From a virus: a stretch of 64,000 nt of DNA. The notes under the pieces were generated by a model, which was given only the letters and a program-made list of their open reading frames with translations, did not search any database and was not told the origin of the DNA. The position numbers were made by a program, and so were the translations under genes. Positions 8,896-31,552 of this stretch are shown in pieces (position 1 is the stretch's first letter; every line of letters starts with the position of its first letter). Location: positions 62,001 through 126,000 of IMG/VR virus record IMGVR_UViG_3300042197_002147; one strand, given 5' to 3'.

Positions 8896-9291
8896 ATGAT
8901 TGATGATATTTTTTCTGGGTTGGGAGTAGAAGTCAATTTAAAAAATAAAGAAGACTTCCTAAAAGTAAAAGAAACATTAACAAGATTGGGAGTTTCTTCA
9001 AAGAAAGAGAAGAAACTTTACCAATCTTGTCATATATTGCATAAGCGCGGAAGATATGCTATAATGCATTTCAAGGAAATGTTTATTCTTGATGGCCTTG
9101 AAAGTGATATTACATTAGAAGACATTCAAAGAAGAAATACAATTGTAAATCTTTTGAACGATTGGGGTCTTTTAGAACCAATTGATTCATCAAAATATGA
9201 AGACAGATTAAGTTTGGCTAGAATTAAAATTTTATCACACAAGGAAAAGAAAGACTGGGAACTCGTACCTAAATACCATATAGGTAAGTGA
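8896..9291 (+). CDS. regA: RegA translational repressor
   Basis: A 131-residue RNA-binding repressor of early phage mRNAs. It matches T4 RegA strongly: 'NKEDFLKVKETLTRLGVSSKKEKKLYQSCHILHKRGRYAIMHFKEM' is nearly collinear with T4, and it ends 'WELVPKYHIGK' as in T4 'WKLVPKYTIGN'. It carries about 9 extra N-terminal residues. The start follows GATAGGGTAATATT, a poor Shine-Dalgarno; in T4 regA represses itself. In T4 gene 43 follows directly, but here 22 kb of sugar-transfer and tail genes separate them. Confidence 0.95.
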   Translation: MIDDIFSGLGVEVNLKNKEDFLKVKETLTRLGVSSKKEKKLYQSCHILHKRGRYAIMHFKEMFILDGLESDITLEDIQRRNTIVNLLNDWGLLEPIDSSKYEDRLSLARIKILSHKEKKDWELVPKYHIGK

Positions 9292-9316: not shown

Positions 9317-10156
9317 ATGGAAAAAATGCAAGCTATTGGTGCCCCGTTTCCGATTGAATACTCATCCTGTTCGGATATAAAACCAAAATTATTCGAATGG
9401 ACGGAAAATAATTGTGATATAAAAGTTTTTATTGATGGTGCAATAGCACAAAATTTAAATTACAAGAAAAAAACAAACGAAAAGAAAATTGCGTGGGTTT
9501 GTGAATCCAGAGCAATATTTCATTCGTGGATGTTTCCAGAAGATCTATGGGAAAAAAATATCCAAAGAATTTCAAATTCTTTTGATACAATATATGTTTC
9601 TGATCGTCGGTGGTGCAAATATGCAGATAATATAAAGTTTGCATTTGCTGGTAGTAATGTTCCGTGGACAAAAGACAAAAAAGTTCATCATAAAACTAAA
9701 TCTACATCAATGATTGCTTCTCCAAAAATTATAACATTTGGACATAAGTTAAGACATGCGATAGCAACAAAACACGCCGATAAAATTGATGTATTTGGTG
9801 GAGCAAATGGTTCTAAAAGATTTGGAGATGGTGTTTGGCCAAACAAAGCAGAAGCAATGAATGATTATATGTTTTCGGTTGCAATCGAAAATGATAGTTA
9901 TACCACATATTTTACAGAAAAAATAACAGATTGTTTTGCTAGCGGAACAGTGCCAATTTATTGGGGAACTCCTGATATTGGTAACTACTTTGACAAAGAT
10001 GGTATCATAGAACTAACTCCAGATTTTGATTTTTCTTCATTGACAGCAGATCTTTATCAAAGTAAAATTTCAGCAATTAAAAATAATTTTGAAAAAGTAA
10101 TGACTATGGAACTTGCAGACGATGTTTTATTTAAATTAATTACCAATGAAAACTGA
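9317..10156 (+). CDS. GT10-like (alpha-1,3-fucosyltransferase C-terminal type) glycosyltransferase
   Basis: A 279-residue enzyme. The donor-binding core 'FSVAIENDSYTTYFTEKITDCFASGTVPIYWG' near residues 190-223 is the signature of GT10 fucosyltransferases (family pattern 'ENS...YxTEKl.da..aGtVPVywG'). I chose the ATG at 9317, preceded by GTGGAG at 9-nt spacing. The GTG inside that Shine-Dalgarno is in frame but unlikely. This is the first gene of a sugar-transfer island and overlaps the next by 11 bp. The acceptor is unknown: virion glycan, host surface glycan or DNA are all possible. Confidence 0.8.
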   Translation: MEKMQAIGAPFPIEYSSCSDIKPKLFEWTENNCDIKVFIDGAIAQNLNYKKKTNEKKIAWVCESRAIFHSWMFPEDLWEKNIQRISNSFDTIYVSDRRWCKYADNIKFAFAGSNVPWTKDKKVHHKTKSTSMIASPKIITFGHKLRHAIATKHADKIDVFGGANGSKRFGDGVWPNKAEAMNDYMFSVAIENDSYTTYFTEKITDCFASGTVPIYWGTPDIGNYFDKDGIIELTPDFDFSSLTADLYQSKISAIKNNFEKVMTMELADDVLFKLITNEN

Positions 10157-10817
10157 AATTATTTCATTTTATTGTGATATAGATGGTTCAACATACTATA
10201 GTGATAATGCATCTCGTATTATCAATGAATGCGTTGACCTCAAGATACCATTTGATTTTAGAAAAATAAATTCACATGGTGATTATAGATTAAATTGCTT
10301 GCGAAAACCAAAATTTATACTAAGTGTTTTAGAGGAAAAAAAGAAACCAATAGTTTGGTTAGATATTGACTCTAAATTACACAAGACACTTGATGTTTTT
10401 GATAAGTTTGCGGAAATGAATGTTGATCTTGGTTTTGCATATTATGAAACTCAAAAAGAAAAAATAAATGTATTGCAACCAAAAGCATCACCCATATTTT
10501 GCAACTATAACGAAAAAGTAATTAACTTTTTAAAAACATGGTTGAATAAATGCGAAGAAACATTAAAATCTGAGGAGAGATTCTTTGATCATGAAATTTT
10601 AATGTTTAGAGTTTTACCTTTTTTTGTTAATCAACTTAAAATTGGATGTTTACCTTTGGCTTATTGTGTTTGGCCTGGTAGATGTCCCGTTGAAATAGAT
10701 CCATATATAACAATGGGTATTGCTGATGGGAAGTCAAAAGAAAAAAATATTCGTGAATTGGCCAAAAAAATTGGCATGAATGAAGATGGAATTTTATTGA
10801 ATTTGAACAGGATTTAA
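10146..10817 (+). CDS. Putative nucleotide-diphospho-sugar transferase (GT-A, DxD)
   Basis: A 223-residue protein. 'KKPIVWLDIDSKLHKTL' near residues 74-90 is the metal-binding DxD of GT-A nucleotide-sugar transferases. Its downstream 'ERFFDHEILMFRVLPF' fits the acceptor-side Asp found in DUF273/GT77-like enzymes. It overlaps the GT10 gene by 11 bp and is followed at 3 bp by a GT10-GT2 fusion, so the three should act on one glycan. Sugar and linkage are unknown. Confidence 0.65.
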   Translation: MKTEIISFYCDIDGSTYYSDNASRIINECVDLKIPFDFRKINSHGDYRLNCLRKPKFILSVLEEKKKPIVWLDIDSKLHKTLDVFDKFAEMNVDLGFAYYETQKEKINVLQPKASPIFCNYNEKVINFLKTWLNKCEETLKSEERFFDHEILMFRVLPFFVNQLKIGCLPLAYCVWPGRCPVEIDPYITMGIADGKSKEKNIRELAKKIGMNEDGILLNLNRI

Positions 10818-10820
10818 AAT

Positions 10821-12380
10821 ATGAAAGCAATTATACAAAATGGAAACTATTTTTCAGATGAAATGAATTTTGATTTTCCATGTGAAGTTCATTTTACCAG
10901 ATTTGGTTTAAATTGGCATAGAGGGAAACCATTAAGAATAGCAAAAAGAGATGAAAGAAGAAACCAAGCACAAATAGATTTTGAGAACAATAATTCTTTT
11001 AAAATTTTTGTTTGTTCAAATGAACCTAGCTCATCTATGGCTAGAGAATTAAATGATGTAATAATTGATAACGCACACCAATATGATTTAATTCTTACAT
11101 GGGAATCAAATATAATTGAAAATACAGATAACTCTGTATTTTTTCCATATGGTGGAACATGGTTAAATAAAAAACAAAATTCACACGAAGACTCTCTTGG
11201 GTCGTTTGATGAATCTATTTTAGAAAAAGTTAAAAATAAAAAATTTGGAACTACTTTTTTAACTACGCATTTAATGTTTAAAGAAGGTTATGAAATTAGA
11301 AAAAAAATATGGAATTCTAGAGATAGCATACAAATTCCAACAAAATTTTATTCAAGTTCTAGAATGCCGACAAATGATGCAACTTCATATGACACAAAAA
11401 ACAAATATCTTTTTTCCAATACAGTACATGATGGTTTTTTGGAAAACGATGACAAAATAAATTTATTTGATCACCAATTTAATATCACCGTAGAGAGCAG
11501 CAAAGAAAATTCTTATTTTACTGAAAAACTAATAGATCCTCTGTTAACTAAAACTGTTCCAATTTATTGGGGTTGTGATAATTTAGATGAATTTTTTGAT
11601 ATAAGGGGAATAATAACTTTCAAAACATATGAAGAATTTTTGGAAAAAATTAATAAAATTGACGAAAATACCTATGAATCAATGAAACCATATATTGAAA
11701 AAAATTATAAATTAGCTCAAGAATATGGTAAATCATATTTTTCAAGAATAGAAAAAGAAATTGAAAGGCAGTATGATTTTTATTTTAATAAGAAAGATAT
11801 TCTATGGACAATAGGAATACTTACTGTCCCGGAAAGAAAAGATAAATTGAAAAACTTGTTAGAAAAAATTAATACAACTATTCCTTATTCTTTTAAACAC
11901 AGAATTGAAATTCTAATAAATGAGGATGAAAAAGAAAAAAGTGTCGGTGCAAAAAGAAATGAAGTATTATTGAAAGCAAATGGAAAATATGTTTCATTTA
12001 TAGATGACGACGATATGATCTCAAGTACTTATATTCCAAAAATTTGTAGAAAATTGGATAAAAATTTATATGATGGTATTGGATTTTGGGGTCTATATTA
12101 TGTAAATGAACAACCAACAATGTTTTTTAATCACGCTCAAAAAAATAATGGTCATTATAAAGATAGAACTGGTAAACAATACAGACCATTAAATCATTTA
12201 AATCCAGTTAAAACCGAAATAGCAAAACAAATAATGTATCCAGAAAAAAATTATGGAGAAGATTCTGATTATTGTGACAAATTACTATATTCTGGTTTAA
12301 TTAAGAGTGAATATAATTTTGAAGAAGTTATGTATCATTATTTGTGGTCCCAAGAATTAACTTTAACGCAAAAAGGATAA
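10821..12380 (+). CDS. Two-domain glycosyltransferase: GT10-like + GT2 (GT-A)
   Basis: A 519-residue fusion. The N-terminal 330 residues end in a GT10 core ('FNITVESSKENSYFTEKLIDPLLTKTVPIYWG'), a paralogue of the gene at 9317. The C-terminal part starts 'DILWTIGILTVPERKDKLKNLL' and has 'VGAKRNEVLLKANGKYVSFIDDDDM', the GT2 pattern with a DDDD metal site. It could add two sugars in sequence. Very AT-rich codon use resembles the rest of the island. The following FkbM methyltransferase starts 5 bp on, preceded by AAAGGA inside this gene's end. Confidence 0.8.
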   Translation: MKAIIQNGNYFSDEMNFDFPCEVHFTRFGLNWHRGKPLRIAKRDERRNQAQIDFENNNSFKIFVCSNEPSSSMARELNDVIIDNAHQYDLILTWESNIIENTDNSVFFPYGGTWLNKKQNSHEDSLGSFDESILEKVKNKKFGTTFLTTHLMFKEGYEIRKKIWNSRDSIQIPTKFYSSSRMPTNDATSYDTKNKYLFSNTVHDGFLENDDKINLFDHQFNITVESSKENSYFTEKLIDPLLTKTVPIYWGCDNLDEFFDIRGIITFKTYEEFLEKINKIDENTYESMKPYIEKNYKLAQEYGKSYFSRIEKEIERQYDFYFNKKDILWTIGILTVPERKDKLKNLLEKINTTIPYSFKHRIEILINEDEKEKSVGAKRNEVLLKANGKYVSFIDDDDMISSTYIPKICRKLDKNLYDGIGFWGLYYVNEQPTMFFNHAQKNNGHYKDRTGKQYRPLNHLNPVKTEIAKQIMYPEKNYGEDSDYCDKLLYSGLIKSEYNFEEVMYHYLWSQELTLTQKG

Positions 12381-12385
12381 AATTT

Positions 12386-13060
12386 ATGACAATAGTATAT
12401 AAAGAAAAAAACGGTTATGATGTTATTTCGAGAGATGTTGAAGAAAATTTTCACAAGTATATAAATAAAAACAAAGATGATATAAAAACTATTGTCATAG
12501 TTGGTGGTTATCATTGTTGGGAAGCGCAAAAGTATTTACAATTGTATAAAAATGCTAAAATTTACATATTTGAACCAGTCAGAGAATTTTTTAACATAGT
12601 AAAACAACAATATGGATTAAATCCAAGATGTGAATTACATAATTTGGCAATAACAAGTATAACCGGAGAAATTGATTTTTATAGAACATCTTCTCCGGGT
12701 TCGGATTCAATATATCCAGTAATAGAAAATAATAATAGTGGTTATTCCTTTAAGAGTGTGCAAAAAATAAAAGTAAAATCAGACAAATTATCAAATATTG
12801 TCAAAGAAAATATAGATCTACTAAGTATTGATGTTCAGGGGGCAGAGTTGGAAGTACTTAAAGGAACAAATTTAGAAAATGTTTCTTGTATTTTTGCAGA
12901 AATACAAATGTCACAAAATAAAAATAATCAAGTTTATGATGGTCAATGTTTTTCTGATGATTTAAAAAATTACTTATCCGAAAAATTTGATTTACATTCT
13001 TTAGGTTTGGACAATGAATTAAATAATGGAACTGGTAATAGTTTTTGGATTAAAAAATAA
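12386..13060 (+). CDS. FkbM-family SAM-dependent methyltransferase
   Basis: A 224-residue methyltransferase of the FkbM type, which O-methylates sugars and other small acceptors. Motif I appears as 'IVIVGGYHCWEAQKYL', the acidic ribose site as 'IYIFEPVREFF', and the family signature 'LLSIDVQGAELEVLKG' is present. I take the ATG at 12386 after AAAGGA. In-frame codons before it lie within the previous gene. It is one of three FkbM-like genes in this island, suggesting a multiply methylated glycan. Confidence 0.85.
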   Translation: MTIVYKEKNGYDVISRDVEENFHKYINKNKDDIKTIVIVGGYHCWEAQKYLQLYKNAKIYIFEPVREFFNIVKQQYGLNPRCELHNLAITSITGEIDFYRTSSPGSDSIYPVIENNNSGYSFKSVQKIKVKSDKLSNIVKENIDLLSIDVQGAELEVLKGTNLENVSCIFAEIQMSQNKNNQVYDGQCFSDDLKNYLSEKFDLHSLGLDNELNNGTGNSFWIKK

Positions 13061-13732
13061 ATGAATAAACTTGCTGTAATAGTTCCCTATAGGAATAGAA
13101 AATCTCATTTAGATCAATTTATTCCATATATGAATGATTATTTATTTAAAAATATTGGCAATAATTTTTATATTGTTGTTGTTGAACAATTAAATAAAAA
13201 TTTATTCAATAGAGGAACTTTAATAAACATTGGTTTTGAATTAGAAAAAAACAATTGCGATTATATTTCTCCCCACGATGTTGATTTATTACCAGAAGAT
13301 GCAGATTATTCCATACCAACAATTCCAATTCATTTAGCTGCTTATAGATCACAAAAAAATTATATATTAGAATATGAAAACTTTTTTGGAGGAGTTAATT
13401 TATTTTTAAATGAACATTTTTTAAAAATAAACGGATTTTCTAATTTTTATGCAGGATATGGTGCAGAAGATGATGATTTGCGTCATAGATGTGTTGTTTC
13501 TGGTTTAAGTCCGCAAAGAAGATTTGCAAGATATACATCTTTACACCATGAACCAGTTTCTTCTGCAACAAAAGAAAATGAAACTCTTTGGTTCGATATT
13601 CAAAGAGGAAGCATGAATACCACAATGAATTTTGATGGTCTTTCTACGATAAAGTACAAAACAGTAAAAAAAGAAACTAAAGATTTTGTGCATTATTATG
13701 TTGATTTTGAAAACGAAAGATATACAAAATGA
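13061..13732 (+). CDS. Beta-1,4-galactosyltransferase-like enzyme (GT7)
   Basis: A 223-residue enzyme with the full GT7 pattern known from animal beta-4-galactosyltransferases: 'VIVPYRNRKSHL', 'NRGTLINIGFELE', the metal site 'HDVDLLPE', 'FFGGVNLF', 'INGFSNFYAGYGAEDDDLRHR' and a C-terminal 'LHHEP'. The animal WGWGGEDDD segment is AGYGAEDDD here. The likely reaction is transfer of Gal or GalNAc from the UDP-sugar. No signal anchor is present, so it is cytosolic. It starts immediately after the FkbM stop and ends with an ATGA overlap. Confidence 0.88.
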   Translation: MNKLAVIVPYRNRKSHLDQFIPYMNDYLFKNIGNNFYIVVVEQLNKNLFNRGTLINIGFELEKNNCDYISPHDVDLLPEDADYSIPTIPIHLAAYRSQKNYILEYENFFGGVNLFLNEHFLKINGFSNFYAGYGAEDDDLRHRCVVSGLSPQRRFARYTSLHHEPVSSATKENETLWFDIQRGSMNTTMNFDGLSTIKYKTVKKETKDFVHYYVDFENERYTK

Positions 13733-14556
13733 GTGATAAAATTTGTGTTTTAGTTGTAAGCCATAATTTTCCAGAACTGACAGATTCTTTGTGTGATTCG
13801 ATAGTTTCAAGAACAAAAAATATAGACTATGATCTACATGTAGTAGAAACTGGTTCAGAGATTACAAATTGTTCAAAATATGCAACTATGTGGGTTAAAG
13901 ATGGTTGTAGAATGACTAGAGGATTTAATCTTTTAAAGCAATACGCAGATGCAGTAAATAAATACAATAATAAAAAAGAATATTCTGCATATATGTTATT
14001 TGTAAATGACGCAAAATTTATAGATGACAAAGATTTAATTTCTATTCTTTACGAGGAAATGAAAAATAAACCAGATTGTGGTCAAATACATCCCTATCAG
14101 AGTAATATTTATTTTCCTCATATGAGACTGGGAAAACTTTCAGAAGATTTAACAAGAAAAGAAAGTTTTTCTGAAATAGTATGTCCCATGATATCAGCAA
14201 AGGCATGGAATGTATGTGGTGAAAATTTTTTAGATAATAGGTTTTATTATGGATGGGGACTAGATTATGATATGCCATATCAGTTACATTTGAATGGTTT
14301 TCGTACTTATATAACAGATAAAGTTGGTATTTTTCATGATCCATTTACATCTTATAAAAATAAAGAAAAAACAAAAGAAAAATTAAATGTAAACGAATTT
14401 GCAAATATAGCAAGAAATAACATGCATCAAGGTTTTTGCGAAAAATATGGGAATAATTGGATGCAAAGTTTAATGGATGGAGTCCCAAATGATGTTTCTA
14501 AAGAAAGTTTGTATTTGTGGTTACACCACAATGATGGATATAATGGTAACAAATAA
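13729..14556 (+). CDS. Putative GT2-type glycosyltransferase
   Basis: A 275-residue protein beginning 'KICVLVVSHNFPELTDSL', the usual first strand and helix of GT2 enzymes. 'AYMLFVNDAKFID' marks the metal-binding acidic loop. 'NRFYYGWGLDYDMPYQLHLNGFRTYI' matches the acceptor-site region in which an ED or D-x-D pair sits before the final helix. It overlaps the GT7 gene by ATGA and shares a base with the next start (TAATG). The substrate is unknown. Confidence 0.7.
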   Translation: MSDKICVLVVSHNFPELTDSLCDSIVSRTKNIDYDLHVVETGSEITNCSKYATMWVKDGCRMTRGFNLLKQYADAVNKYNNKKEYSAYMLFVNDAKFIDDKDLISILYEEMKNKPDCGQIHPYQSNIYFPHMRLGKLSEDLTRKESFSEIVCPMISAKAWNVCGENFLDNRFYYGWGLDYDMPYQLHLNGFRTYITDKVGIFHDPFTSYKNKEKTKEKLNVNEFANIARNNMHQGFCEKYGNNWMQSLMDGVPNDVSKESLYLWLHHNDGYNGNK

Positions 14557-15170
14557 TGAAAAATAATATTATTTTTGATTTAGATGGAGTTTTAGTCGAT
14601 GCATGTGACTGGCACTATGAGTCTTTAAATAGAGCTTTAGTTGAATACAATAAAAAACCAATTTCTAGGGAAGATCATTATAAAACTTTTAATGGTTTAC
14701 CTACAAAAATCAAATTGGAAATGCTAAAAATAGACAAAAAAGAAGCAGAAGAAATAAATCGTCTAAAACAAAAACACACTTTAGATGTAATTGAAAATTT
14801 TGGTAAAGTAATGGAAGAAAAAATAGAACTACATAGGTTTTTAAAGCAAAATAATTTTCAAATATCTTGTGTTACAAATTCAATAAAGGAAACAGCATTA
14901 AAAATGCTTAAAATTACTGGTCAATATGATTATATTGATTTATTGGTTACAAACGAAAATGTAAAAAGAAACAAACCACATCCAGATTGTTACATATATG
15001 CAATGGAGATTATGAAAACTACTCCAAATGATGTTTTTTGTGTAGAGGATTCTGATATTGGAGTAAAATCTGCAATGAATGCAAATATTAAAAATTTATT
15101 AATTGTTAAAAATACAAAAGAAGTTAATTTCGAAAGTATTAAAAAATTTATAAATGGAGTTAAACAATGA
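14556..15170 (+). CDS. HAD-superfamily phosphatase / phosphoglucomutase-like
   Basis: A 204-residue HAD hydrolase. Motif I is 'IIFDLDGVLVDACDWHYES' with nucleophile Asp8 and acid/base Asp10. Motif II is the 'CVTNS' segment, motif III the Lys of 'NKPHPDCYIYAMEIM', and motif IV 'FCVEDSDIGVKSAMNA'. The pattern fits beta-phosphoglucomutase-like HADs, which isomerise or dephosphorylate sugar phosphates. It lies directly before a sugar-nucleotidyltransferase and probably prepares its substrate. Starts and stops overlap on both sides. Confidence 0.88.
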   Translation: MKNNIIFDLDGVLVDACDWHYESLNRALVEYNKKPISREDHYKTFNGLPTKIKLEMLKIDKKEAEEINRLKQKHTLDVIENFGKVMEEKIELHRFLKQNNFQISCVTNSIKETALKMLKITGQYDYIDLLVTNENVKRNKPHPDCYIYAMEIMKTTPNDVFCVEDSDIGVKSAMNANIKNLLIVKNTKEVNFESIKKFINGVKQ

Positions 15171-15883
15171 ATATATTAATACCAATGGCCGGCGAAGGCA
15201 GTAGATTTGCAAAAGAAGGTTATACCTTTCCAAAACCTTTAATTGATGTTTCCGGTAAACCAATGATTCAACAAGTGGTTGAAAACTTAAAATTTGATGC
15301 TAAGTACATTTTTTTGGCAAGAAAAGAGCATTTAGAAAAATATAAAGGTCTTTATTCAACTTTAGATAGAATTACTAATGGAAATTTTGAAATAATTGAA
15401 GTAAATTCTTTAACAGAAGGTGCTGCATGTACCGCTTTGTTGGCTAAACAATTTATTAACAATGAAGAAGATTTATTAATTGCAAATTCAGATCAAATTA
15501 TAGAATATTCTTCCTTAAATTTCAGTTATTTAAAAACTTTTTCTTCAGTAGATGGCATAGTTTTTTGTTTTAATGCGGTTCATCCAAAATGGTCTTTTGT
15601 TGAATTAGATTCTTTTGGGATAGTAACTAAAGTTGCAGAAAAAAATCCAATTTCAAATATAGCAACTTGTGGAATTTATTGGTATCGTAGGGGATCTGAT
15701 TTTGTTTCATGTGCTGAAGAAATGATACAAAAAAATATAAGAGTCAATAATGAATTTTATATTGCACCAGTATACAATGAATTAATAACTAAAAATAAAA
15801 AATTAATTCCATTCTATGTAAACAAAATGTATGGAATAGGAACTCCGGAAGACTTAAACTATTATTTGAAAGTTAAAGAATGA
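15167..15883 (+). CDS. Sugar-phosphate nucleotidyltransferase
   Basis: A 238-residue enzyme of the glucose-1-phosphate thymidylyl/cytidylyltransferase family. The nucleotide loop is 'IPMAGEGSRFAKEGYTFPKPLIDVSGKPMIQ' (GxGxRx..PKPL), and 'LLIANSDQIIEY' supplies the metal-binding Asp. It makes an NDP-sugar donor for the neighbouring transferases. Together with the HAD gene it shows that the phage makes its own activated sugar instead of only borrowing the host pool. ATGA overlaps tie it to both neighbours. Confidence 0.88.
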   Translation: MNILIPMAGEGSRFAKEGYTFPKPLIDVSGKPMIQQVVENLKFDAKYIFLARKEHLEKYKGLYSTLDRITNGNFEIIEVNSLTEGAACTALLAKQFINNEEDLLIANSDQIIEYSSLNFSYLKTFSSVDGIVFCFNAVHPKWSFVELDSFGIVTKVAEKNPISNIATCGIYWYRRGSDFVSCAEEMIQKNIRVNNEFYIAPVYNELITKNKKLIPFYVNKMYGIGTPEDLNYYLKVKE

Positions 15884-16668
15884 AAGATTTAACAATTGCA
15901 ATACCTTTGGGAGTTTCTACGCCAGGAACTCCTGTATTGAGACATCTTAAAAAATGTGTAGATTCTATTAAGAATCAAAAAACAAATTATTCTTATGATA
16001 TTATGTTTGCATGTGATGAGAATGTTTCAGAAGAAATAAAAAATTATTTAGAATCTACTAATTGCTTTATTAAATGGTATGATCCATTTTATTTTTTCAG
16101 AAAAGGTAGTATATGGAAAAAAATATTTGATCAATGGGTTAATAGTGATTCAAAATATATTGCATTTTGTCACTATGATGATATTTGGCATGAAAATAAA
16201 ATACAAACTCAAATTTCTTTCATGGAAAATAATAATTATGATTTGTCTTGGTCTTCAGTTTATGTAATAAACGAAGAGGATTCTGTAGTTTCTAGTGATG
16301 CTGCTTGTTACACAGAATTGAATAAGCACACAATAACACAACCACAATCATACGCTTTTTCTCATTCTTCTATGATGAATAAAGATAAATTCTTAAAAAC
16401 AGGTATAATGGATGTATTGAATGAATCCTCTAGAATTTACGAAGAAGTTCATTTTGTTTTTTGTCACAAATTAGTAGGTAAAAAAAGTAATGATTCTATC
16501 TTCTACCATAGAAATCATTCGAATAGTATTAGTAGTAATTTTAATAAAGATAGTGAAATAATAAATTCACAAAGAAAATTAACAAATTATTCCTTAGAAG
16601 AAGAATATGAAGATGCAAAAAAAATAAACATTAAAAAAATAATTACAGAAATACAAACTACTTTATGA
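15880..16668 (+). CDS. GT2-family glycosyltransferase
   Basis: A 262-residue transferase with an N-terminal 'LTIAIPLGVSTPGTPVLRHLKKCVDSIKNQ' and the metal site 'YIAFCHYDDIWHENKIQTQI', typical of GT2. A later 'RIYEEVHFVFCHKL' supplies the acceptor-side acidic pair. The protein ends in a short Lys-rich helix. It is embedded between the nucleotidyltransferase and a GDPD-like gene with ATGA overlaps. Linkage and substrate are unknown. Confidence 0.75.
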   Translation: MKDLTIAIPLGVSTPGTPVLRHLKKCVDSIKNQKTNYSYDIMFACDENVSEEIKNYLESTNCFIKWYDPFYFFRKGSIWKKIFDQWVNSDSKYIAFCHYDDIWHENKIQTQISFMENNNYDLSWSSVYVINEEDSVVSSDAACYTELNKHTITQPQSYAFSHSSMMNKDKFLKTGIMDVLNESSRIYEEVHFVFCHKLVGKKSNDSIFYHRNHSNSISSNFNKDSEIINSQRKLTNYSLEEEYEDAKKINIKKIITEIQTTL

Positions 16669-17111
16669 AAATTATTTCGCATAGAGGAAATCTTTCTGGT
16701 ATAGATTTAAATAGAGAAAATAAAAAATGGGCAATTAATGAATGTTTACTATTAAATTTTGATGTAGAAGTAGATATTCATTATCATAAAAATCAAATTT
16801 TTCTTGGTCACGATTTACCAGAAGAAAAAATTGATATTGAATATTTAATAAAAAATAAAAACAAACTATGGTTACACTTAAAAAATATAGATTCTGTTTG
16901 CTTTTTCCTAAAAAATAAAATAAAATTTAATTGGTTTTGGCATCAAAAAGATGATTTAACTTTAACTAGTTTTGGTATACCGTGGTGTTATCCAGATAAA
17001 TATATTGAATGTGGAGTAACTGTAGTCAAAAATATTAAAAAAGAAATACCAAAAGTTTATGGTATTTGTACAGATTATCCTTTAGAATGGAGAAAATATA
17101 ATGAGTTCTGA
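16665..17111 (+). CDS. GDPD/PI-PLC-like phosphodiesterase, short form
   Basis: A 148-residue protein resembling part of a glycerophosphodiester phosphodiesterase barrel. 'IISHRGNLSG', 'FDVEVDIHYHKNQIFLGHD' give the catalytic HR, the metal-binding E-x-D and the second His. Typical enzymes are about 240 residues, so the C-terminal barrel strands are reduced. Relatives of this short type occur in surface-polysaccharide clusters. It may edit glycerol-phosphate groups on the glycan, or be a degraded enzyme. It overlaps the next gene by 11 bp. Confidence 0.7.
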   Translation: MKIISHRGNLSGIDLNRENKKWAINECLLLNFDVEVDIHYHKNQIFLGHDLPEEKIDIEYLIKNKNKLWLHLKNIDSVCFFLKNKIKFNWFWHQKDDLTLTSFGIPWCYPDKYIECGVTVVKNIKKEIPKVYGICTDYPLEWRKYNEF

Positions 17112-17724
17112 TGTCACAAAAACCTTTAGAAATAGTCATGGTGGTTATTCACAGCAAACAGAAGATTTAGAATTGCAAAAAATACTACCAAAATCTGGTT
17201 ATTTTCTTGAAATTGGTTCATATTGTCCTTACACCTTTTCAAACACTAGATTTTTAGTAGAAAGGGGGTGGAAGGGGTGTTATGTTGATGGTTGCTCGTA
17301 TGCTATTAGCAGATTCATTGATGTATATAAGGACAATAATGATATTTCAATAGTTCATGCACTTATTGGAGATAAAGATGATTTTGTTGAGTTTTATAAT
17401 AGCATAGCCGACGCTGTTTCTACAACAGATCAAAATTTTATGAATATGTGGAAATCTGGTGGCCACGCATTTAAGAAAATGTATACATCAATGATAACTT
17501 TTAAAACTTTGCAAAAAATTTTACCACAAAATGTAGATTTTATAAACATTGATGTTGAGGGACAGTCAGCATATTTGTCAACAATAATTGATTATGATAT
17601 TTTAAATACAAAATTTGTGTGTGTAGAACATGATAATAAAATACAAGAGCTAAAAAATAATTTTGCTAATAGGGGATTTGAGCATTATTGGAATAATGAT
17701 ACAAATATAATATTTAAAAGGTAA
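17101..17724 (+). CDS. FkbM-like methyltransferase
   Basis: A 207-residue AdoMet enzyme. 'SGYFLEIGSYCPYTFSNTRFL' is motif I in the form FxEIG. 'WKGCYVDGCSYA' is the ribose-binding region, and 'VDFINIDVEGQSAYLS' is the FkbM signature. The opening 'SHGGYSQQTEDLELQKIL' resembles the 'SQxxQDxxL' N-terminus found in this family. It probably O-methylates a sugar of the phage glycan. Confidence 0.8.
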   Translation: MSSDVTKTFRNSHGGYSQQTEDLELQKILPKSGYFLEIGSYCPYTFSNTRFLVERGWKGCYVDGCSYAISRFIDVYKDNNDISIVHALIGDKDDFVEFYNSIADAVSTTDQNFMNMWKSGGHAFKKMYTSMITFKTLQKILPQNVDFINIDVEGQSAYLSTIIDYDILNTKFVCVEHDNKIQELKNNFANRGFEHYWNNDTNIIFKR

Positions 17725-17729
17725 TTTCA

Positions 17730-18380
17730 ATGAAAACTTTAGTTTATGTTGGGGCAAATGCTGGCTACGGTTTATATAATACACTTATGAATTCTTCTAT
17801 AAGGTTTGATAAAATTTATGCATTTGAGCCAGATCCAGAAATCTACAAAATATTAAAAGAAAATTTTAAAAATTTTTTAAATATTAATACTATAAATGCT
17901 GGATGTTCAGATCAATCGGGGACTAAAACTCTGTATGTAACAGAAAATAGAGTTTCTAGTTCTCTTGCAGATGTGAACATGAATAATCAAAATGAAGTCG
18001 GTGGTCATTCTGGGGGTAAACCAGCTTTTAAACAAGTAGATGTCAATATAATTAATCTTTACGATTTCTGTGAACAAAATAATATAAAAGAAATAGATTT
18101 ACTAGTAACAGATTGTCAGGGAAGTGATTATACTATATTAAAAACTATGGAACCTTTATTAAAGGAAAGAAAAATAAAAAATCTATTTTGCGAAACACAT
18201 AGAGATGGGTTTGAAATTTATAATGGATTGGATAATTCTTTTTCTAAATTCAAAGAATTATTAAATGAAAACTATGAAATAGATTTTTTTATGGCAGACA
18301 TTAATTATGTTGATAAAAACAATACAGAAGAATTGTTCAAACATATAGAATGGGACACCATGTGGAAACTTAAGTCATAA
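17730..18380 (+). CDS. FkbM-like methyltransferase
   Basis: A 216-residue AdoMet enzyme, third of its type in the island. Motif I is 'LVYVGANAGYGLYNTL', the ribose-binding acid is in 'IYAFEPDPEIYKIL', 'INAGCSDQSGTKTLYV' is a typical FkbM segment, and 'LLVTDCQGSDYTILKTM' replaces the usual IDxEG signature. The stop codon is part of a CATAAATA box. It lies 5 bp after the preceding gene. Confidence 0.8.
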   Translation: MKTLVYVGANAGYGLYNTLMNSSIRFDKIYAFEPDPEIYKILKENFKNFLNINTINAGCSDQSGTKTLYVTENRVSSSLADVNMNNQNEVGGHSGGKPAFKQVDVNIINLYDFCEQNNIKEIDLLVTDCQGSDYTILKTMEPLLKERKIKNLFCETHRDGFEIYNGLDNSFSKFKELLNENYEIDFFMADINYVDKNNTEELFKHIEWDTMWKLKS

Positions 18381-18383
18381 ATA
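18376..18383 (+). promoter_or_regulatory. CATAAATA, late-promoter-like box
   Basis: CATAAATA overlaps the stop codon of the FkbM gene and lies 31 nt before the next start at 18415, which has AAGGA upstream. It is one base away from the T4 late consensus. The gene downstream is the last sugar-transfer gene before the tail genes, so late expression is plausible. AT-rich context lowers confidence. Confidence 0.3.
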
Positions 18384-18414
18384 AATAGTATAGACTTAAA
18401 GGATAAATAAAAAT

Positions 18415-19608
18415 ATGAAAAAACTAGCATTATGCATGATCGTGAAAAATGAATCTCACATTATTCGTGAGTGTCTGAATTCTGTTGCAAATATCGTAGA
18501 CTATTGGGTTATTTGTGACACTGGTTCTACTGACGGTACTCAAGAAATAATTAAAACCTTTTTTCAAGAAAAAGGAATACCCGGAGAACTACACGAAAGA
18601 GAATGGAAAGGTTTTGGTCATAATAGAACCGAAGCATTTAAATTATGTGAAGGTAAAGCAGAATATGCTTTTGTCATAGATGCTGATGATTATGTTGATG
18701 GAAATTTGGTTATTCCAAAAAACATGACTTCTGATGCGTATGCAGTTCGCATGGGTAGACCAGAATTTTCTTGGTGGAGAAATCAAATATTTCGTTTAGA
18801 TGCTAAGTGGAGTTATGTTGGTGTTCTTCACGAATATGCTGCATGTGAAAAGCAAAATCCAATAGTACAAAAATTAGAGGGAAACTATAGAGTGGTTGCT
18901 CGTACTCTTGGAGCAAGAAACAAAGATATAACACCAATAGAGAAATACAAGAAAGATGCTGAAGTTCTGGAAAAAGCATTAGTTGATGAACCAACAAATT
19001 CAAGATATCAATTCTATCTTGCACAAAGTTATTTTGACTCTCAACAATATGACAAAGCAGAAACAGCGTATATTAAAAGAGCAGAAATGGGTGGATGGGC
19101 CGAAGAAGTCTATTATTCAATTTATAGAGTTGCAATAGCAAAAGCACTTCAGAATAAACCATGGCCGGAAGTTCAACAGACATTTTTAGATGCGTACAAT
19201 TATCGTCCAACAAGAGCAGAACCACTTTATCATATTGCTCAGGTTTATAGACAAAAATTTAATATGCCAGTTTTAGCTTATATGTTTGCTAAAGCGGCAA
19301 TGGATATACCTTTCCCGGAACAAGACATATTGTTTGTTCCTGACATAGTATACAATTTTGGTATTTTGGATGAAATTTCTGCTACGGCATTTTATGCTGG
19401 ACATCCTATGGTCGGTTACATAGCAACGGAAAAATTGTTAAAGAGTGGAAAAATACCCCCAGACGAGTTACCAAGAATTCAAAAGAACTTTGAACAGTAT
19501 CAAAAAGTAATAGATCAAATGGTAGAACAGGGATTGTTGGAAAACCCACAGAAAAATCAACCATCTCCTATCAAAAAGAAAACATTTAAGAAGAGAATAA
19601 AAGCATAA
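18415..19608 (+). CDS. GT2 glycosyltransferase with C-terminal TPR-like helices
   Basis: A 397-residue protein. The N-terminal GT2 domain has 'LALCMIVKNESHIIRECLNSV', 'CDTGSTDGTQEII', 'KGFGHNRTEAF' and the metal site 'AFVIDADDYVDG'. From about residue 175, paired helices appear ('NSRYQFYLAQSYFDSQQYDKAETAYIKRAEMGGW'), a TPR pattern as in tail-modifying phage transferases and SPINDLY-like enzymes. The last 20 residues are very basic. It sits between the sugar island and the tail-fibre genes, so it may glycosylate a tail or virion protein. Confidence 0.85.
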   Translation: MKKLALCMIVKNESHIIRECLNSVANIVDYWVICDTGSTDGTQEIIKTFFQEKGIPGELHEREWKGFGHNRTEAFKLCEGKAEYAFVIDADDYVDGNLVIPKNMTSDAYAVRMGRPEFSWWRNQIFRLDAKWSYVGVLHEYAACEKQNPIVQKLEGNYRVVARTLGARNKDITPIEKYKKDAEVLEKALVDEPTNSRYQFYLAQSYFDSQQYDKAETAYIKRAEMGGWAEEVYYSIYRVAIAKALQNKPWPEVQQTFLDAYNYRPTRAEPLYHIAQVYRQKFNMPVLAYMFAKAAMDIPFPEQDILFVPDIVYNFGILDEISATAFYAGHPMVGYIATEKLLKSGKIPPDELPRIQKNFEQYQKVIDQMVEQGLLENPQKNQPSPIKKKTFKKRIKA

Positions 19609-19630: not shown

Positions 19631-20062
19631 ATGCCAGCATCAAAATATGACATTTATGCAGAACAGGGTTCAACTTTTAAGTTACATCTAGATTACAAAT
19701 ATAAAGGTGGCACTGGTATAGATTTGAGCACCTTTACTGGAGAAATGCAAGTCAGAAGATCAGAAAAAGATTCTCAGGCTGTTTTGTTTCTTACACATTT
19801 AGGTGTCACTGGCGGAGGTTCTACTGGAGAATTTACTATTGGAGTTGATGGTGTTGCTGGAATTGGTGGTATTAGTTTCAATACATCAACAAATGGAACA
19901 GTTGGTTATACTGGTGGAATAATGTTCAGAGTCGATAAAACTACAATGAAAAATATTCCAGCTGGTAAACATTTTTATGATTTTGAAATTACAAATAGCG
20001 TAGGTGAAACATATAGATTGGTGGAAGGATCATTTGAGGTATCAAGAGAAATCACAAGATAA
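19631..20062 (+). CDS. Putative baseplate/tail structural protein
   Basis: A 143-residue Gly/Thr-rich, beta-strand protein. It begins 'SKYDIYAEQGSTFKLHLDYKYKG', a start seen in small baseplate or fibre-adapter proteins of T4-like aquatic phages, and ends 'GETYRLVEGSFEVSREITR'. It is preceded by GGGAG and opens the tail-fibre module, with the collagen-like fibre starting 3 bp later. It probably connects the fibre to the baseplate. Role inferred from position. Confidence 0.65.
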   Translation: MPASKYDIYAEQGSTFKLHLDYKYKGGTGIDLSTFTGEMQVRRSEKDSQAVLFLTHLGVTGGGSTGEFTIGVDGVAGIGGISFNTSTNGTVGYTGGIMFRVDKTTMKNIPAGKHFYDFEITNSVGETYRLVEGSFEVSREITR

Positions 20063-20065
20063 AAG

Positions 20066-21811
20066 ATGTCAAACTCAAATGATAATGTTTTATTAATTAT
20101 TACAACATTTAGAAATCAGAGCGAAGTAAGTGCTTCTGGTACTAATGTTAATAATTTAATTCCATCTTCATTACAATCAACTAAAATAGAATACGCAGGA
20201 AATAGCGTAAATAATATTATAGTAAATCCTGCTCAATCCGCAGAGATAACTGTAACTCCCTTCGTTAATTCAACGAATATAATTGCAACAACAGAGAAAA
20301 CTACTGTTTTGGTTGCAACTCCCCTTGGTCCTTCTATTCCTGGCGCAGCAGGTCCGGCCGGAATTGCCGGAGCAACTGGTAATACTGGTGCAACTGGACC
20401 AACTGGTCCTGTTGGTGATTATGTCATATCATTGAATGGATTAACTGGAATTATTGGTATAAGTGCCGGAACAAATGTAATAATTACAAGTTCTGGAAAT
20501 GACATCATAATAGGTTCTTCTGGTGGATCTGGTGTTCCCGGTGGAAATAACACACAAATACAATTTAACAACAATGGTGCTTTCGGTGGTTCTAGTAATT
20601 TAACATGGCAAGAATCTGCGCCTGCTGGATCTGGTAAAACTGCTTCTTATGTTGAATTTAAAAATAGGTCTGGAATAAAGTTATATGAAAAATCAACATA
20701 TGGTAATAATTTTATCAGTTTTGTTGCTCCAGAGATCATTGATGATACAAGTGGATCGGTATATGTATTTCCTTCCGGTCTTTGCGGTCCAGTAAACAGT
20801 TATTTGTCATTGACTAATAAAAATAACGGAATATATCAACTAAGTTGGGTAAAAAACATTTATTTGGAGCTTTTGGATACTTCTGCTGTCAACACCGATA
20901 CACTAACTGTTGGTTCTTTGATAACTTTTGCAGATGGAACTACTCTTTCTTCAGCAGATACAATTGTTGGTGCTACAGGCGCAACTGGTGCAACTGGTGC
21001 TACTGGTTCTCAAGGTGTTCAAGGAATTCAAGGACCAACTGGTTCTACGGGCGCAACTGGTGCTACTGGTTCTCAAGGTATACAGGGAAATACAGGACCA
21101 ACAGGTGCTACTGGATCACAGGGTATTCAGGGACCTCAAGGAACTACTGGTGCTACTGGTTCTCGCGGAACAACTGGTTCGTCTGTTTTAAATTTTTCAA
21201 TACTTGATGGTTATTTGGAATATCAAATACAAAATTTTAGTCCAGATGTTATTTTAAATGGAAATGCTGGTTATGTAGTTGGTTCTATTGGACCAACTGG
21301 TCCTACTGGTGCTACTGGTTCTCAAGGCATACAGGGAAATACAGGACCAACAGGTGCTACTGGTTCTCAAGGCATACAGGGAAATACAGGATCAACAGGT
21401 GCTACTGGATCACAGGGTATTCAGGGACCTCAAGGAACCACTGGTGCAACTGGTCCGACAGAAGATAATATAACACTTTTTATTGATGGAACACCGGATG
21501 AAATATCTACAGGTAATAAGGGTTATAAGCAAATACCATATGATTGCTCTATATTGGAATGGTACATTTTGGCAGGACAAACTGGATCAATACAATTCGA
21601 TATTAAAAAATCTTCGTTTAATAATTATCCATCAACTTCTTCTATAGTCGGAGGAGATTATCCAAATTTGTCATCTCAATTAAAAAATTCAAACACCGGA
21701 GTAACACTTTGGTCTGGTATATCTGGTGGAGATATGATTGATTTTGTGATAAATAGTAACACAGGCATAGAAAAAGTAGGTTTATTCATTAAAATACGGA
21801 GAACTTTATGA
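20066..21811 (+). CDS. Tail fibre protein with collagen-like GXY repeats
   Basis: A 581-residue fibre protein. Three collagen-like blocks of Gly-X-Y (mostly [22 protein letters not shown]) lie near residues 96-113, 302-371 and 413-468, separated by globular beta-rich segments. Such blocks form trimeric triple helices in phage fibres. The C-terminal 110 residues ('[24 protein letters not shown]') look like a compact tip domain. The ATG follows the preceding stop by 3 bp and the gene ends with an ATGA overlap. The repeated DNA allows slippage and domain exchange. Confidence 0.85.
20968..21460 (+). repeat. Direct repeats encoding collagen-like Gly-X-Y units
   Basis: Units such as GGTGCTACTGGTTCTCAAGG and ATACAGGGAAATACAGGACC recur at about 21061, 21310 and 21355, and a longer unit at about 21110-21165 recurs at 21398-21450 with few changes. 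The near identity at DNA level points to recent duplication or conversion within the fibre gene. Confidence 0.85.
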
Positions 21812-24258
21812 GATCAGCGGTAGAACATCATTTTACAGGTTTGACAGCAGGATTTACTGGTGGGCTTCCAGCTGTAGGCGTTACTGCTGGATATGATTCA
21901 ACAAAAACATTAATTTCTTCTTTGTTGCGTCAAGCCACGGGATCAAACTACGAAGACAAGTACATCTCCGCAAAACCATCTACTATTGTCAACATCCCCG
22001 AAGTGTTTACTTCAGGTACACAAGCATACCCGTTTGTGTATAAATGGTCTGACAACATTTATTGGGTATTCACGGCATCAAATGCTACTGCCGCCGCTAC
22101 GAGAACTATTGCCCTTACCGAATTCAACTCAACAAATTCAACCCTGACATACAAGGGGTTCATCACGCTACTCGGAACTACAGTTTCGGGTAGCAAGACT
22201 GTTCGTTCTTTACGAGCAATGGTCTACAAGCACACAACAGGAACAGTTTCAACAAGCGGTTCATCCACCACAATTTCAGGATCTGGAACGGGGTTTACGG
22301 ATGAACGAATTGCTGTGGGAGCAAGAATCGGTTTTGGAACCACCGATCCAACCGCAGTTACTACATGGTATGAAATCACGGCAATCACGGATAACACCAC
22401 TCTAACGATAAATGCACCCGTAACACTTTCAGCAGGAACTTCGTATGCCATAGAGGAGATTCGCATTGCTCTTGCCTGCACTCAATCAGGTACGGGTACT
22501 GTAGTTCTCAACAGCGGTTTGCATTACATCAAGGGATTAAACTATAGCACATTTACAAACGGTGGAACTAACATCCCAGAGGCAACAACCGTAGACAACA
22601 TTCGTGCCTCGTATCTCCTGACCGATGCAAGAATCAACGGAGATGATATACAGACATTTACGGTTACGATTGCTTCACCCGCAGTAGTGACTTGCAACAG
22701 CCACGGATTGAGAAATGGCGATGTCGTAATTCTCACGACAACTGGTGCATTGCCAACAAACTTGACTGCATCACCTACTACTGCTGCAACTCCATATTTC
22801 GTTATCAACGCATCCACAAACACATTTAATCTCTCAACGACACTCAACGGCACGGCAATCAATACAAGCGGTTCTCAGAGCGGAACTCATACTCTGCACT
22901 CCCATGCAAAAAATGTAAGCGCAACTTTGGCAATAGATGATGAGGTCAGCAAAACAGACCACAGCATCTACATGGTTTCTACATATGGCACGGCTTGTTC
23001 TATAACAGAGTATAATCTACGAGCAGCACTTACTGTTGGTGCAATGGGATCGTTTATAACCGCAGGAACTTCAACAAGTGCATATGTGCTATCTACCACA
23101 ACACAAGCGGTTACGGGAACACCTTCACAGGTAAATTCTGGAAGAATATTTACAGTAAACCACGGCTCTGCGTCAGGAGTAAAGTCTTTGTGGTTTGTGA
23201 CAACAACGAGAGTATATCGTGTTCCTGACGCAAACATAACCGATGGTTCTGTAAACTGGCTTGTGGATGCAATGCTTGAAGTTCCACCTGGAGGTAGCGT
23301 TACATACACTGCTCTTAGTAATATGTCTCAGGTGGATTATTCCTCCACAATTGATCGTTTGTTTGTCACAAACGCGAGTGGTCGTTTTGGTGTTTATATT
23401 ACGCCATATACAACTGATGGAAGTCAGTTTGAAAAATATATTGGTGCAAACCTTAACAGATTAAAACTTACCACAACACCAAGTGGTGCAAGTGATGGGT
23501 TGTTTCCGCAGACTACGCTTACACTTTGGACAGAAGACGGATGGATGTTTGTTATTCCAAACTCAACTACCTCGGGACAAAACTGGTTATATGTGTTCCC
23601 CTTTGGTACGGATGCTTACTACAACAGCACAACAAACCAACACATCATCACACCCAAACTTGCAACCACGGGTGCGACCAAACTGTATCACGCCTATGTT
23701 GACCACATGGAATACGCAGGAGATTACGGGCTTGGATTCCCCGTTGAGTCCTACAAGTTGTGGTATCGCACAAGCGGCATAGACGACAATAGCGGTGCGT
23801 GGACGGAAGTTCCCGTTGGAGCGGACTTGGACGCTGCTGCGGTGGGCGACTACATTCAATTCAAGATTGCATTTGACATTTTGGGCGAGATTTGCGCTCC
23901 AACACGCATCTACTCCATAGCAGCAACATACGAGGACAACTCGCAGGATTCGCACTATCAGCCTTCCTTGGCGAAGTCATCCACGGCAAGCAAGATATTC
24001 GCATGGAGACAGGTCGCAGCATGGGGATCGAACATCCCGAACCTTCGCATTCGGCTCTATGATGCAACGACAAACAACGAGTTGCTGAACGATACCGTGA
24101 CGAACTCTTCCTACGGAACATGGCAGTATTCCACGGATGGAACCAACTGGTTGTCGTGGAGTTCTTCTGCGGATGCAATCGGAAATTACATTCGCTATAC
24201 CGCAACCAACTTCGGCTACAGCGGAGTCACCGTCAGGGCATTGCTGACACAGGCATAA
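21808..24258 (+). CDS. Large tail-associated / adhesin protein with atypical base composition
   Basis: An 816-residue Thr/Ser-rich beta protein. The opening '[16 protein letters not shown]' and several '[22 protein letters not shown]' stretches look like a receptor-binding or baseplate-spike protein. A short '[29 protein letters not shown]' module resembles repeats in other phage tail proteins. The C-terminal '[26 protein letters not shown]...[14 protein letters not shown]' is beta-rich. The gene is clearly richer in G+C than its neighbours, above all after about 23.6 kb, with different codon choice, which suggests transfer from another genome. Role inferred from context. Confidence 0.7.
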
Positions 24259-27185: not shown

Positions 27186-28894
27186 GAACAAGGTCAAATC
27201 GCTTAAATAATGGTTATATTGGAGATTATACTGCTCACGATGATGTAACAGGTGTAGTTAGTTTAAATAAAAAGTATCTTGTAAACGATTATAGTGCCGA
27301 AACTACTTGGGTTAGACCGTCACAGTGGAGACAAGGACCAAGTGTTTCTGAGGGTGAACAAAAAATTGTAATCACAAATGCAGTGTATAACACGGATAAT
27401 AATTTTACTGCATTTACAATGAGTGGAAATTTTGCAGTAGATTGGGGTGACGGTACTACAGGAGCTTTTACTTCACTTAATACTGCATCAAAAAATTATG
27501 ATAAAACTACCTATGCTGGTCTTACCAGTGATGTTTTTAGAGGATATAAGACTTTAAACATCGTTATTACACCACAGGCTGGAGCTACATTCAACGGTCA
27601 ATTAAATTTGGCAGTAAAACATCCACAGTCAGGATTACAAAGTTATTATTCTAATGGATATCTTGAAATAATAATGTCCGCACCATTTATGACCGGACCA
27701 ATTACAATTTCAGATACAACATTTAACAACAGATCAGCTTCTAGATTATTGGAACATTTTAGATGGATCGGAAATTCAAGTTTAACTTCAATAGGTGCAT
27801 CTTTTATTGGTTGCAATAATCTTAAAATTATAAGTGCATTTCCTTCAACTAGAAATTGTACAGATTTTCAGAGTTTGTTTCACAGTTGTCACAGCTTAGA
27901 ATGGATACCACCAACTATATGTGAAACTGGAAATGCTACAGTTTTAGCATTTATGTTCTATTTGTGTACAGCTTTAAAAAGAGTTCCCGGAACATTTAAC
28001 ACAAGCAAGGCAACTTCAATGACACAGTTGTTTCAAGATTGTACAATGTTAAAAAGAATACCAGCAATCGACACATCAAAAGTTACAGGTTCAAATATGG
28101 CTGGATTGTTTGCTGGTTGTTTTTCTATAGAAACAATACCGGGAGAAATTAATGCTCAAAATGCAACAGCTTTAAATGCTTTGTTTCAAAATTGCAATAA
28201 TTTAAGAAAATTACCTAAAATAATAAACACCTCCAATGTAACTAATTTTTCAGCAATGTTTAATGGAACTAGAGCAATAGATGTTATACCTTACTTCGAT
28301 ACAAGTAAAGGAACAGATTTTTCTAGTATGTTTTCTGTTACTGGTGCTCGAAAATTTGATGATGCATGGGGCCTTACATTTAACATGCCCCAAGCAACAA
28401 GAACTGATAACATGTTTAGATTTACTAGAACTTTAGAAAGAGTACCCAATACATTTGTTACTGGTGCAACTCTTACAAACTGTTCAGAAATGTTCTATGA
28501 GTGCTATTCATTAACAAATTGTCCCACTATTACAAATATTTCAAATTGCACAAACTTAACAGGAATGTTTTATAATTGTCGTGCAATTAAGGAAATTCCA
28601 ACAATGACTATTTCAAATAATGCAAACAATTATGGTGGAACGGCTACTACTACTAGAATGTTTTATCAAAATTGGAACTTAAGTTCATGTGGATTAACAG
28701 GATTTACCGGAGCAAATGTTTCATTTGAAGCTTGTTCTCTTGGTGCTACAGCCTTAAATGATATTTATAGAAGTTTAGCTGTTGTTGGTGCTTCTGGTGC
28801 TGGTGTGCGTACTATTACTGTAACTGGAAATTGGGGAACCGCAGCAGATGATACTATGATTGCAATAGCAAAAGGATGGGCAGTATCGGGGTAA
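27182..28894 (+). CDS. Tail-module protein with DUF285-type (BspA-like) repeats
   Basis: A 570-residue protein. Starting near residue 65, 'FTMSGNFAVDWGDGTTGAF' resembles a PKD-like or DUF285 lead-in. Then many units of about 25 residues follow, such as 'FDTSKGTDFSSMFS', 'INTSNVTNFSAMFNGT' and 'IDTSKVTGSNMAGLFAGC'. This is the DUF285/bacterial-surface repeat ('D.S.vtnms.mF.gc..l') known from Mycoplasma, lactobacilli and marine bacteria. It would form a solenoid suited to binding. The start is the ATG overlapping the previous stop. The likely role is receptor-binding tip or accessory adhesin. Confidence 0.8.
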   Translation: MRTRSNRLNNGYIGDYTAHDDVTGVVSLNKKYLVNDYSAETTWVRPSQWRQGPSVSEGEQKIVITNAVYNTDNNFTAFTMSGNFAVDWGDGTTGAFTSLNTASKNYDKTTYAGLTSDVFRGYKTLNIVITPQAGATFNGQLNLAVKHPQSGLQSYYSNGYLEIIMSAPFMTGPITISDTTFNNRSASRLLEHFRWIGNSSLTSIGASFIGCNNLKIISAFPSTRNCTDFQSLFHSCHSLEWIPPTICETGNATVLAFMFYLCTALKRVPGTFNTSKATSMTQLFQDCTMLKRIPAIDTSKVTGSNMAGLFAGCFSIETIPGEINAQNATALNALFQNCNNLRKLPKIINTSNVTNFSAMFNGTRAIDVIPYFDTSKGTDFSSMFSVTGARKFDDAWGLTFNMPQATRTDNMFRFTRTLERVPNTFVTGATLTNCSEMFYECYSLTNCPTITNISNCTNLTGMFYNCRAIKEIPTMTISNNANNYGGTATTTRMFYQNWNLSSCGLTGFTGANVSFEACSLGATALNDIYRSLAVVGASGAGVRTITVTGNWGTAADDTMIAIAKGWAVSG

Positions 28895-31539: not shown

Positions 31540-31545
31540 TATAAT
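31517..31545 (+). promoter_or_regulatory. Sigma70-type promoter giving a leaderless mRNA for the polymerase N-half
   Basis: TTGGTA (31517-31522), 17-bp spacer, TATAAT (31540-31545), then 7 nt to the ATG at 31553. The -35 is weaker than its sisters (4 of 6) but the -10 is perfect and the spacing is the same. The promoter lies inside the end of the DUF1599-like gene. Confidence 0.75.
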
Positions 31546-31552
31546 AACTTTC

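Follow-up and report, generated by a model that had tools for sequence, protein, structure and literature searches.

What do the products of a 10-kb sugar-transfer island glycosylate when the island lies between regA and the collagen-type fibre genes of an uncultured phage? The window, which here means the whole 64,000-nucleotide stretch that was analysed, corresponds to bases 62,001 to 126,000 of the 156,711-base IMG/VR record IMGVR_UViG_3300042197_002147. It encodes the T4-like myovirus markers gp46, clamp, gp44, gp62, regA, a split gp43, UvsX, gp41, gp61, and ribonucleotide reductase, and the T4 portal gene was found in the record outside the window. None of 50,697 cultured-phage records reached 50% identity with the portal, gp46, or the N-terminal half of gp43; the closest cultured relatives were mostly Synechococcus or Prochlorococcus phages, and these markers place the source phage in a T4-like, uncultured lineage. 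A cyanophage host was considered by seeking a Photo_RC or other photosystem gene across the record, and none was found. The T4 late promoter TATAAATA did not occur above the frequency expected by chance. The two genes of the split DNA polymerase gp43 (window 31517–33031 and 37509–38624) are separated by 4.5 kb, and six tRNA genes lie in the gap or next to the two halves; gp43 is also split in Synechococcus phage ACG-2014f, where the gap is much shorter.

The original prediction described a sugar-transfer island at 9317–19608 with its own NDP-sugar supply. All thirteen genes, designated A to M and all on the plus strand, were recovered at these positions with profile or structure matches, B being the one without a family match (Table 1). 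As anticipated, the genes overlap or are separated by gaps of 0–34 bases and end beside the fibre genes, with M stopping 22 bases ahead of N, the first gene of the fibre block. The GC content of genes C to L is 23–29%, compared with 26–40% for core genes, and their third-position GC is 11–20%.

Table 1. Genes of the sugar-transfer island and its immediate neighbours (positions in the window).
Gene	Position	Strand	Assignment	Match or occurrence
regA	8896..9291	+	core T4 gene, left border	PF01818 4.9e-41
A	9317..10156	+	GT10-type (fucosyltransferase-like) glycosyltransferase, constant	Pfam GT10 3.5e-9
B	10146..10817	+	constant left-hand gene, no family match	
C	10821..12380	+	two-domain GT10 + GT2, exchangeable	Pfam GT10 3.7e-6, GT2 2.9e-7; 7/20 loci
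D	12386..13060	+	FkbM-type methyltransferase, exchangeable	PF05050 5.4e-13; 3/20 loci
E	13061..13732	+	GT7 (beta-4-galactosyltransferase family), soluble, 223 aa, exchangeable	2/20 loci
F	13729..14556	+	DUF707-like, exchangeable	PF05212 2e-5, marginally above cut-off
G	14556..15170	+	HAD phosphatase, member of G-H-J set	PF13419 (HAD_2) 1.6e-31
H	15167..15883	+	sugar-phosphate nucleotidyltransferase	phrog_3980 3e-67; PDB 4evw 1e-20
I	15880..16668	+	GT2 glycosyltransferase, exchangeable	PF00535 3.4e-9
J	16665..17111	+	compact GDPD-like protein, 148 aa	AlphaFold + Foldseek
K	17101..17724	+	FkbM-like methyltransferase, exchangeable	phrog_8156 1.8e-7; Pfam FkbM 0.004, under cut-off
L	17730..18380	+	FkbM-type methyltransferase, exchangeable	PF05050 1.4e-16
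M	18415..19608	+	GT2 + probable TPR, GmaR/SunS-like, constant right-hand gene	GT2 1.8e-15
N	19631..20062	+	small protein preceding fibre, right neighbour	phrog_1084 4e-20
O	20066..21811	+	collagen-like fibre protein	Collagen 8e-21, tail-fibre PHROGs

The two GT10-like domains (in A and C), the several GT2 enzymes (C, I, and M), the HAD phosphatase (G), and the nucleotidyltransferase (H) that had been predicted were all borne out, and A additionally matched the Helicobacter FucT structures 2nzw/5zoi at ~3e-9. F is probably a GT2-like transferase, and its paralogue in locus L008 has a weak GT2 match. Three FkbM methyltransferases had been proposed; D and L are firm, while K is a weak member, with a Pfam score below the cut-off and a match to phrog_8156 only. 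The idea of an own NDP-sugar supply was overstated, as the window cassette encodes one nucleotidyltransferase and one phosphatase but no sugar-modifying enzyme. Many contigs have G together with H and J, and this G-H-J set recurs in contigs that carry a GT7 gene, with H being 55–79% identical in the linked sets. Two cultured Synechococcus phages, S-CAM9 and S-PRM1, have homologues of all three with the HAD phosphatase and nucleotidyltransferase fused, and S-SM2 has H-like and J genes. Equivalents of G and H are fused at L014:11420–12772 and L129:11341–12726. The fusion into a single protein in other phages supports G and H acting in sequence. For J, which had been called GDPD-like, the AlphaFold model (pLDDT 93.8) and its top Foldseek match, GDPD 1zcc (E 5.6e-3, probability 1.0), support a resemblance to glycerophosphodiester phosphodiesterases in a protein of only 148 residues; J had no Pfam match, and a PDB sequence search returned nothing. 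The J family occurs very widely among viral contigs, with at least 575 relatives in IMG/VR, has no Pfam model, and keeps the motifs HRGN, EN, GHD, and FWH.

Twenty loci, chosen because they contain both B and M, were read from B to M, and constancy was checked separately on 39 contigs with B. The B-to-M distance in the twenty loci ranged from 5.0 to 13.5 kb, and their 301 cassette proteins clustered into 121 families. Three of these, A, B, and M, were constant (20 of 20 loci), and each of the 118 interior families occurred in at most nine loci under the main settings. With the loosest clustering (25% identity) one interior family reached half of the loci, compared with none under the main settings, and the pattern of three fixed genes enclosing a variable middle was robust to these settings. 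The window and one locus (L133) share 99.97% identity across 9.7 kb. A close relative (L134), with regA and gp44 that are 98% and 95% identical to those of the window, matches the window DNA at ~81% identity up to position 13,068 and resumes matching at 18,339; between these points only a 524-base match in K was found, and E to J and L are absent. Based on these DNA breakpoints, the locus is best described as a cassette exchanged between conserved flanks. The commonest Pfam families among 107 cassette proteins, each representing a family absent from the window, were epimerases, GDP-mannose dehydratase types, and several methyltransferase families, with DegT aminotransferases, GT11, GT25, GT47, and other transferases also being frequent. 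By hydropathy, none of the 301 proteins has three or more hydrophobic segments. Gene content, the constancy of A, B, and M, the exchange of the middle, and the adjacency to fibre genes can thus be read from the sequences, and this constant-flank, variable-middle anatomy is the main finding, in which the GT7 is just one of roughly 118 interior families open to exchange (its family was found in the window and one other locus).

The constant genes themselves were examined further. An IMG/VR scan with B yielded 79 contigs with relatives, and none was found in the cultured phages searched. In nearly all of the 79, A and B come directly after gp44-gp62-regA, with the order reversed to B-A in a sister group. 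At L178:54–11815, A-B-E-F-G-H instead follow dUTPase and gp43A rather than regA, and either the locus has moved or the genome has been rearranged. B had no match in Pfam, PHROGs, or NCBIfam, and its AlphaFold model from one homologue reached a pLDDT of 47; the motif WLDIDS, read by eye as DxD-like, makes B a possible glycosyltransferase. M was located downstream of B in 26 of the 39 contigs searched (one weak match was left out), and each of the 13 contigs without M stops no more than 11.5 kb from B, a distance that falls within the B-to-M spacing of the twenty loci. When compared with the PDB, M gave GmaR as its nearest solved relative (2.5e-10) and also matched SunS, a peptide glycosyltransferase (4e-6). 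M fell below the NCBIfam equivalog cut-off for SunS (44 vs 350 bits) and is therefore not SunS itself. GmaR is a flagellin glycosyltransferase that adds N-acetylglucosamine, and a role of its TPR in flagellin recognition has been proposed (PMC9638930). The C-terminus of M resembles TPRs (TPR_17 at 2.7e-4 and several others, all under the Pfam cut-offs), and from these similarities M is a candidate priming protein glycosyltransferase of the GmaR/SunS kind.

To the right of M, N was found in 20 of the 39 contigs. Among the 15 read loci in which N is present, it is no more than 302 bases from M in 11, and the separation is 3.5–6 kb in the other four. In the Gly-X-Y triplets of the collagen-like protein O, 30 of 53 Y positions are Thr. 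Threonine-rich collagen-like ORFs are located downstream of M in many loci; 11 of the 20 have long collagen-like ORFs there, and several of the others are incomplete in this part. The collagen fibre gene of the window is followed by an 816-aa gene (21808–24258) with a GC content of 46%, compared with ~33% for the core, that matched no Pfam or PHROGs family and is possibly a recently acquired fibre. The last gene of the fibre block (27173–28894) encodes DUF285 ('Mycoplasma protein') repeats (7e-25).

Much of the original interest centred on E as an animal-like enzyme of a family thought to be rare outside animals. E is assigned to GT7 based on matches to both Pfam halves, PF02709 and PF13733 (6.6e-18 and 5e-17), that pass the curated cut-offs (64.6 bits, cut-off 23; 62.2 bits, cut-off 27), and it matched the PDB entry of Drosophila B4GALT7 (2e-29). 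Residues were compared in an alignment with those of human B4GALT1 and of 49 further stand-alone relatives. Of the nearly full vertebrate motif set that had been noted, the metal (Mn)-binding DVD, the EDDD base motif, His347 of the metal loop, and the FNR motif are present, but catalytic-loop Trp314 is replaced by Tyr; this change and Trp312 to Ala occur in E and its L008 relative alone, and Trp314 is kept in the other 48 stand-alone relatives. Trp314 is not a CAZy family criterion, and its replacement is a departure inside GT7. Because DVD, EDDD, and His347 are retained, E is probably an active transferase, with an assignment that extends to the family but not to a donor or acceptor. The animal enzymes B4GALT1 and B4GALT7 share with E both Pfam halves and the four retained motifs, whereas E is a soluble catalytic core without stem or anchor.

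An IMG/VR scan for GT7 with a single protein as query retrieved nothing, and the query had to be an alignment that included two PDB enzymes. A scan based on one conserved motif gave relatives at 496 IMG/VR loci and 34 in 84,980 species genomes, with no match to E in the cultured-phage records searched. Among 50 viral GT7 carriers tested, 28 encode a tailed-phage terminase and none an NCLDV capsid (a search without a positive control), which argues against giant-virus contigs mistaken for phage. Given these counts, tailed phages from the environment commonly encode GT7 enzymes, and the presumed rarity outside animals is wrong for them. The nearest relative of E is another phage protein (63% identity), and in the GT7 tree E pairs with the L008 protein at 100/100 support, while the deep branches, including the link to the animal enzymes, have no settled order. 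The AU test rejected neither a clade of the window, L008, and animals (p 0.19) nor a clade of animals alone (p 0.25). Recent capture of an animal GT7 is not supported by these trees, and the animal-like emphasis was misplaced. Many phage contigs encode two or three tandem GT7 proteins of 430–530 aa each, in which a ~250-aa Laminin_G_3-type insert divides the GT7 domain right ahead of the metal loop; separate N and C GT7 parts were recognized in 91 of 107 long proteins. An example with adjoining radical SAM genes is L012:6589–9434, and further tandem long GT7s are present in L010, L011, L013, L036, L037, L043, L048, L049, L055–L057, L060–L063, and L066–L089.

With respect to function, a complex methylated glycan on either tail fibres or the host surface had been predicted, and an explanation of this class still fits best, although supported in part; the fibre option is strengthened since M adjoins the fibre block and resembles GmaR and SunS. 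We give about an even chance to the reading in which the exchangeable locus builds a glycan for fibres of the phage itself, as a counterpart of a flagellin glycosylation island, and rank this above modification of the host surface. Somewhat more tentatively, the region may be a true serotype locus, in which fixed A-B and M surround a swapped cassette that writes a strain-specific glycan on the fibres, such that virions vary as capsules or flagella do. In the scheme that we infer, including its acceptor, sugars, order of transfer, and benefit, M would attach the first sugar to a Ser or Thr residue in a virion protein encoded alongside it, with the collagen-like fibre O as the leading candidate. 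A and B would then contribute conserved steps, and the exchangeable transferases (C, E, F, and I in the window) would lengthen the chain. G and H, with J, would provide or recycle one activated building block, and D, K, and L would methylate the glycan. Recombination in the conserved flanks would replace the middle and thereby change the glycan type of the particle.

Fibre glycosylation is favoured by the conservation of A, B, and M on either side of an exchanged interior, the sharp breakpoints in L134, the proximity of N to M in most loci, the threonine-rich collagen-like ORFs after M, and the similar content and variability of bacterial flagellin glycosylation islands. It is weakened by the sub-threshold TPR match of M, by the four loci in which M and N are well separated, by the possibility that threonine-rich collagen repeats are unrelated to glycans, and by related marine phage clusters of glycosyltransferase and sugar-nucleotide genes, which are usually read as host O-chain modifiers (PMC7029224).

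These clusters, which lie in host-recognition regions of marine myophages (PMC7029224 and PMC7824862), are also the starting point for the alternative that the cassette remodels a host surface polysaccharide (O-antigen or capsule) during infection, blocking superinfection or altering receptors. The position beside the fibres would then reflect joint exchange of fibre and receptor modification. Sister cassettes do carry the epimerases, dehydratases, aminotransferases, and varied glycosyltransferases typical of O-antigen or capsule loci, and cultured Synechococcus phages have such islands distant from their fibres. However, the constant M resembles protein glycosyltransferases, the locus abuts fibre genes in the source lineage, and hydropathy revealed no multi-span membrane protein such as a flippase or polymerase, the last being a weak argument since phages in general have few membrane proteins. 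On balance we consider a host-surface target less likely than the fibres, but a serious competitor. Less probable still is that both targets are modified, or another one such as a different virion protein (capsid decoration or baseplate) or a host protein. Virions of the jumbo phage XacN1 are reported to contain two glycoproteins (PMC5852040), GmaR/SunS-type enzymes use various proteins, and nothing in the sequence fixes the acceptor, but adjacency to and joint turnover with the fibre block point to fibres. Glycosylation of phage DNA, as by the T4 glucosyltransferases, might be suspected in a T4-like phage with many glycosyltransferases. The T4 dCMP hydroxymethylase belongs to the thymidylate-synthase family, and the lack of any gene of this family in the 157-kb record (which is possibly incomplete), together with a cassette content that fits glycan assembly, makes this explanation very improbable.

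Phage glycosyltransferase clusters near fibres and flagellin glycosylation islands are both already known; in the open-access literature searched we found no description of a phage glycan locus whose ends are fixed, with a protein-glycosyltransferase-like enzyme at one end, and whose middle is freely exchanged. The sugar genes long noted in aquatic myophages thereby gain an exact, testable anatomy of three constant genes and an exchanged middle, which names candidates for the chain-starting enzyme and for the acceptor protein. If the fibres are glycosylated, host recognition would rest on a sugar coat replaceable in one recombination event, and host range would not be predictable from fibre sequence alone. 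The GT7 enzymes, usually discussed as animal proteins, offer a natural source of small soluble variants.

Capsule and O-antigen (cps, rfb) loci have conserved flanking genes around an exchanged interior of sugar-nucleotide and glycosyltransferase genes. The phage locus shares this arrangement but lacks Wzx, Wzy, and other multi-span membrane proteins and is located beside fibre genes. Seroconversion clusters of the GtrABC type combine a GtrA and a Gtr(type) that are both multi-span membrane proteins with a membrane GtrB, and no cassette protein has the three or more hydrophobic segments (by hydropathy) expected of such a system. The islands of the Synechococcus phages S-CAM9, S-PRM1, S-SM2, and S-T4 have G-H-J homologues or an A-like GT10, as does the locus, but follow ribonucleotide reductase genes, mostly precede psbA or pstS, and had no detectable B or GT7. 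Hypervariable glycosyltransferases near tail fibres of T4-like aquatic phages are also a feature of the host recognition cluster of pelagimyophages and cyanomyophages and of cyanophage polysaccharide clusters, both being read as modifying the host O-chain or capsule (PMC7029224, PMC7824862). Located between VrlC and gp14, the host recognition cluster has GT8 as its most represented family (PMC7029224), whereas the present locus follows regA, and the accessible parts of both reports do not describe constant A-B and M borders (PMC7029224, PMC7824862). The closest parallel is with flagellin glycosylation islands, in which sugar enzymes, glycosyltransferases, and FkbM methyltransferases are encoded beside the filament gene and vary highly among strains (PMC5109656, PMC4875605). 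With these islands (Geobacillus and Enterobacteriaceae, and GmaR of Listeria) the locus shares soluble sugar enzymes, GT2 and FkbM proteins next to a filament-protein gene, strain variation, a GC shift (PMC4875605, PMC5109656), and, in M, a putative counterpart of the GT2-TPR protein glycosyltransferase. It differs in being phage-borne, in its fixed genes at both ends, and in a putative acceptor encoded by neighbouring fibre-type genes rather than a flagellin gene. By analogy, the locus would work like a flagellin glycosylation island but is not one.
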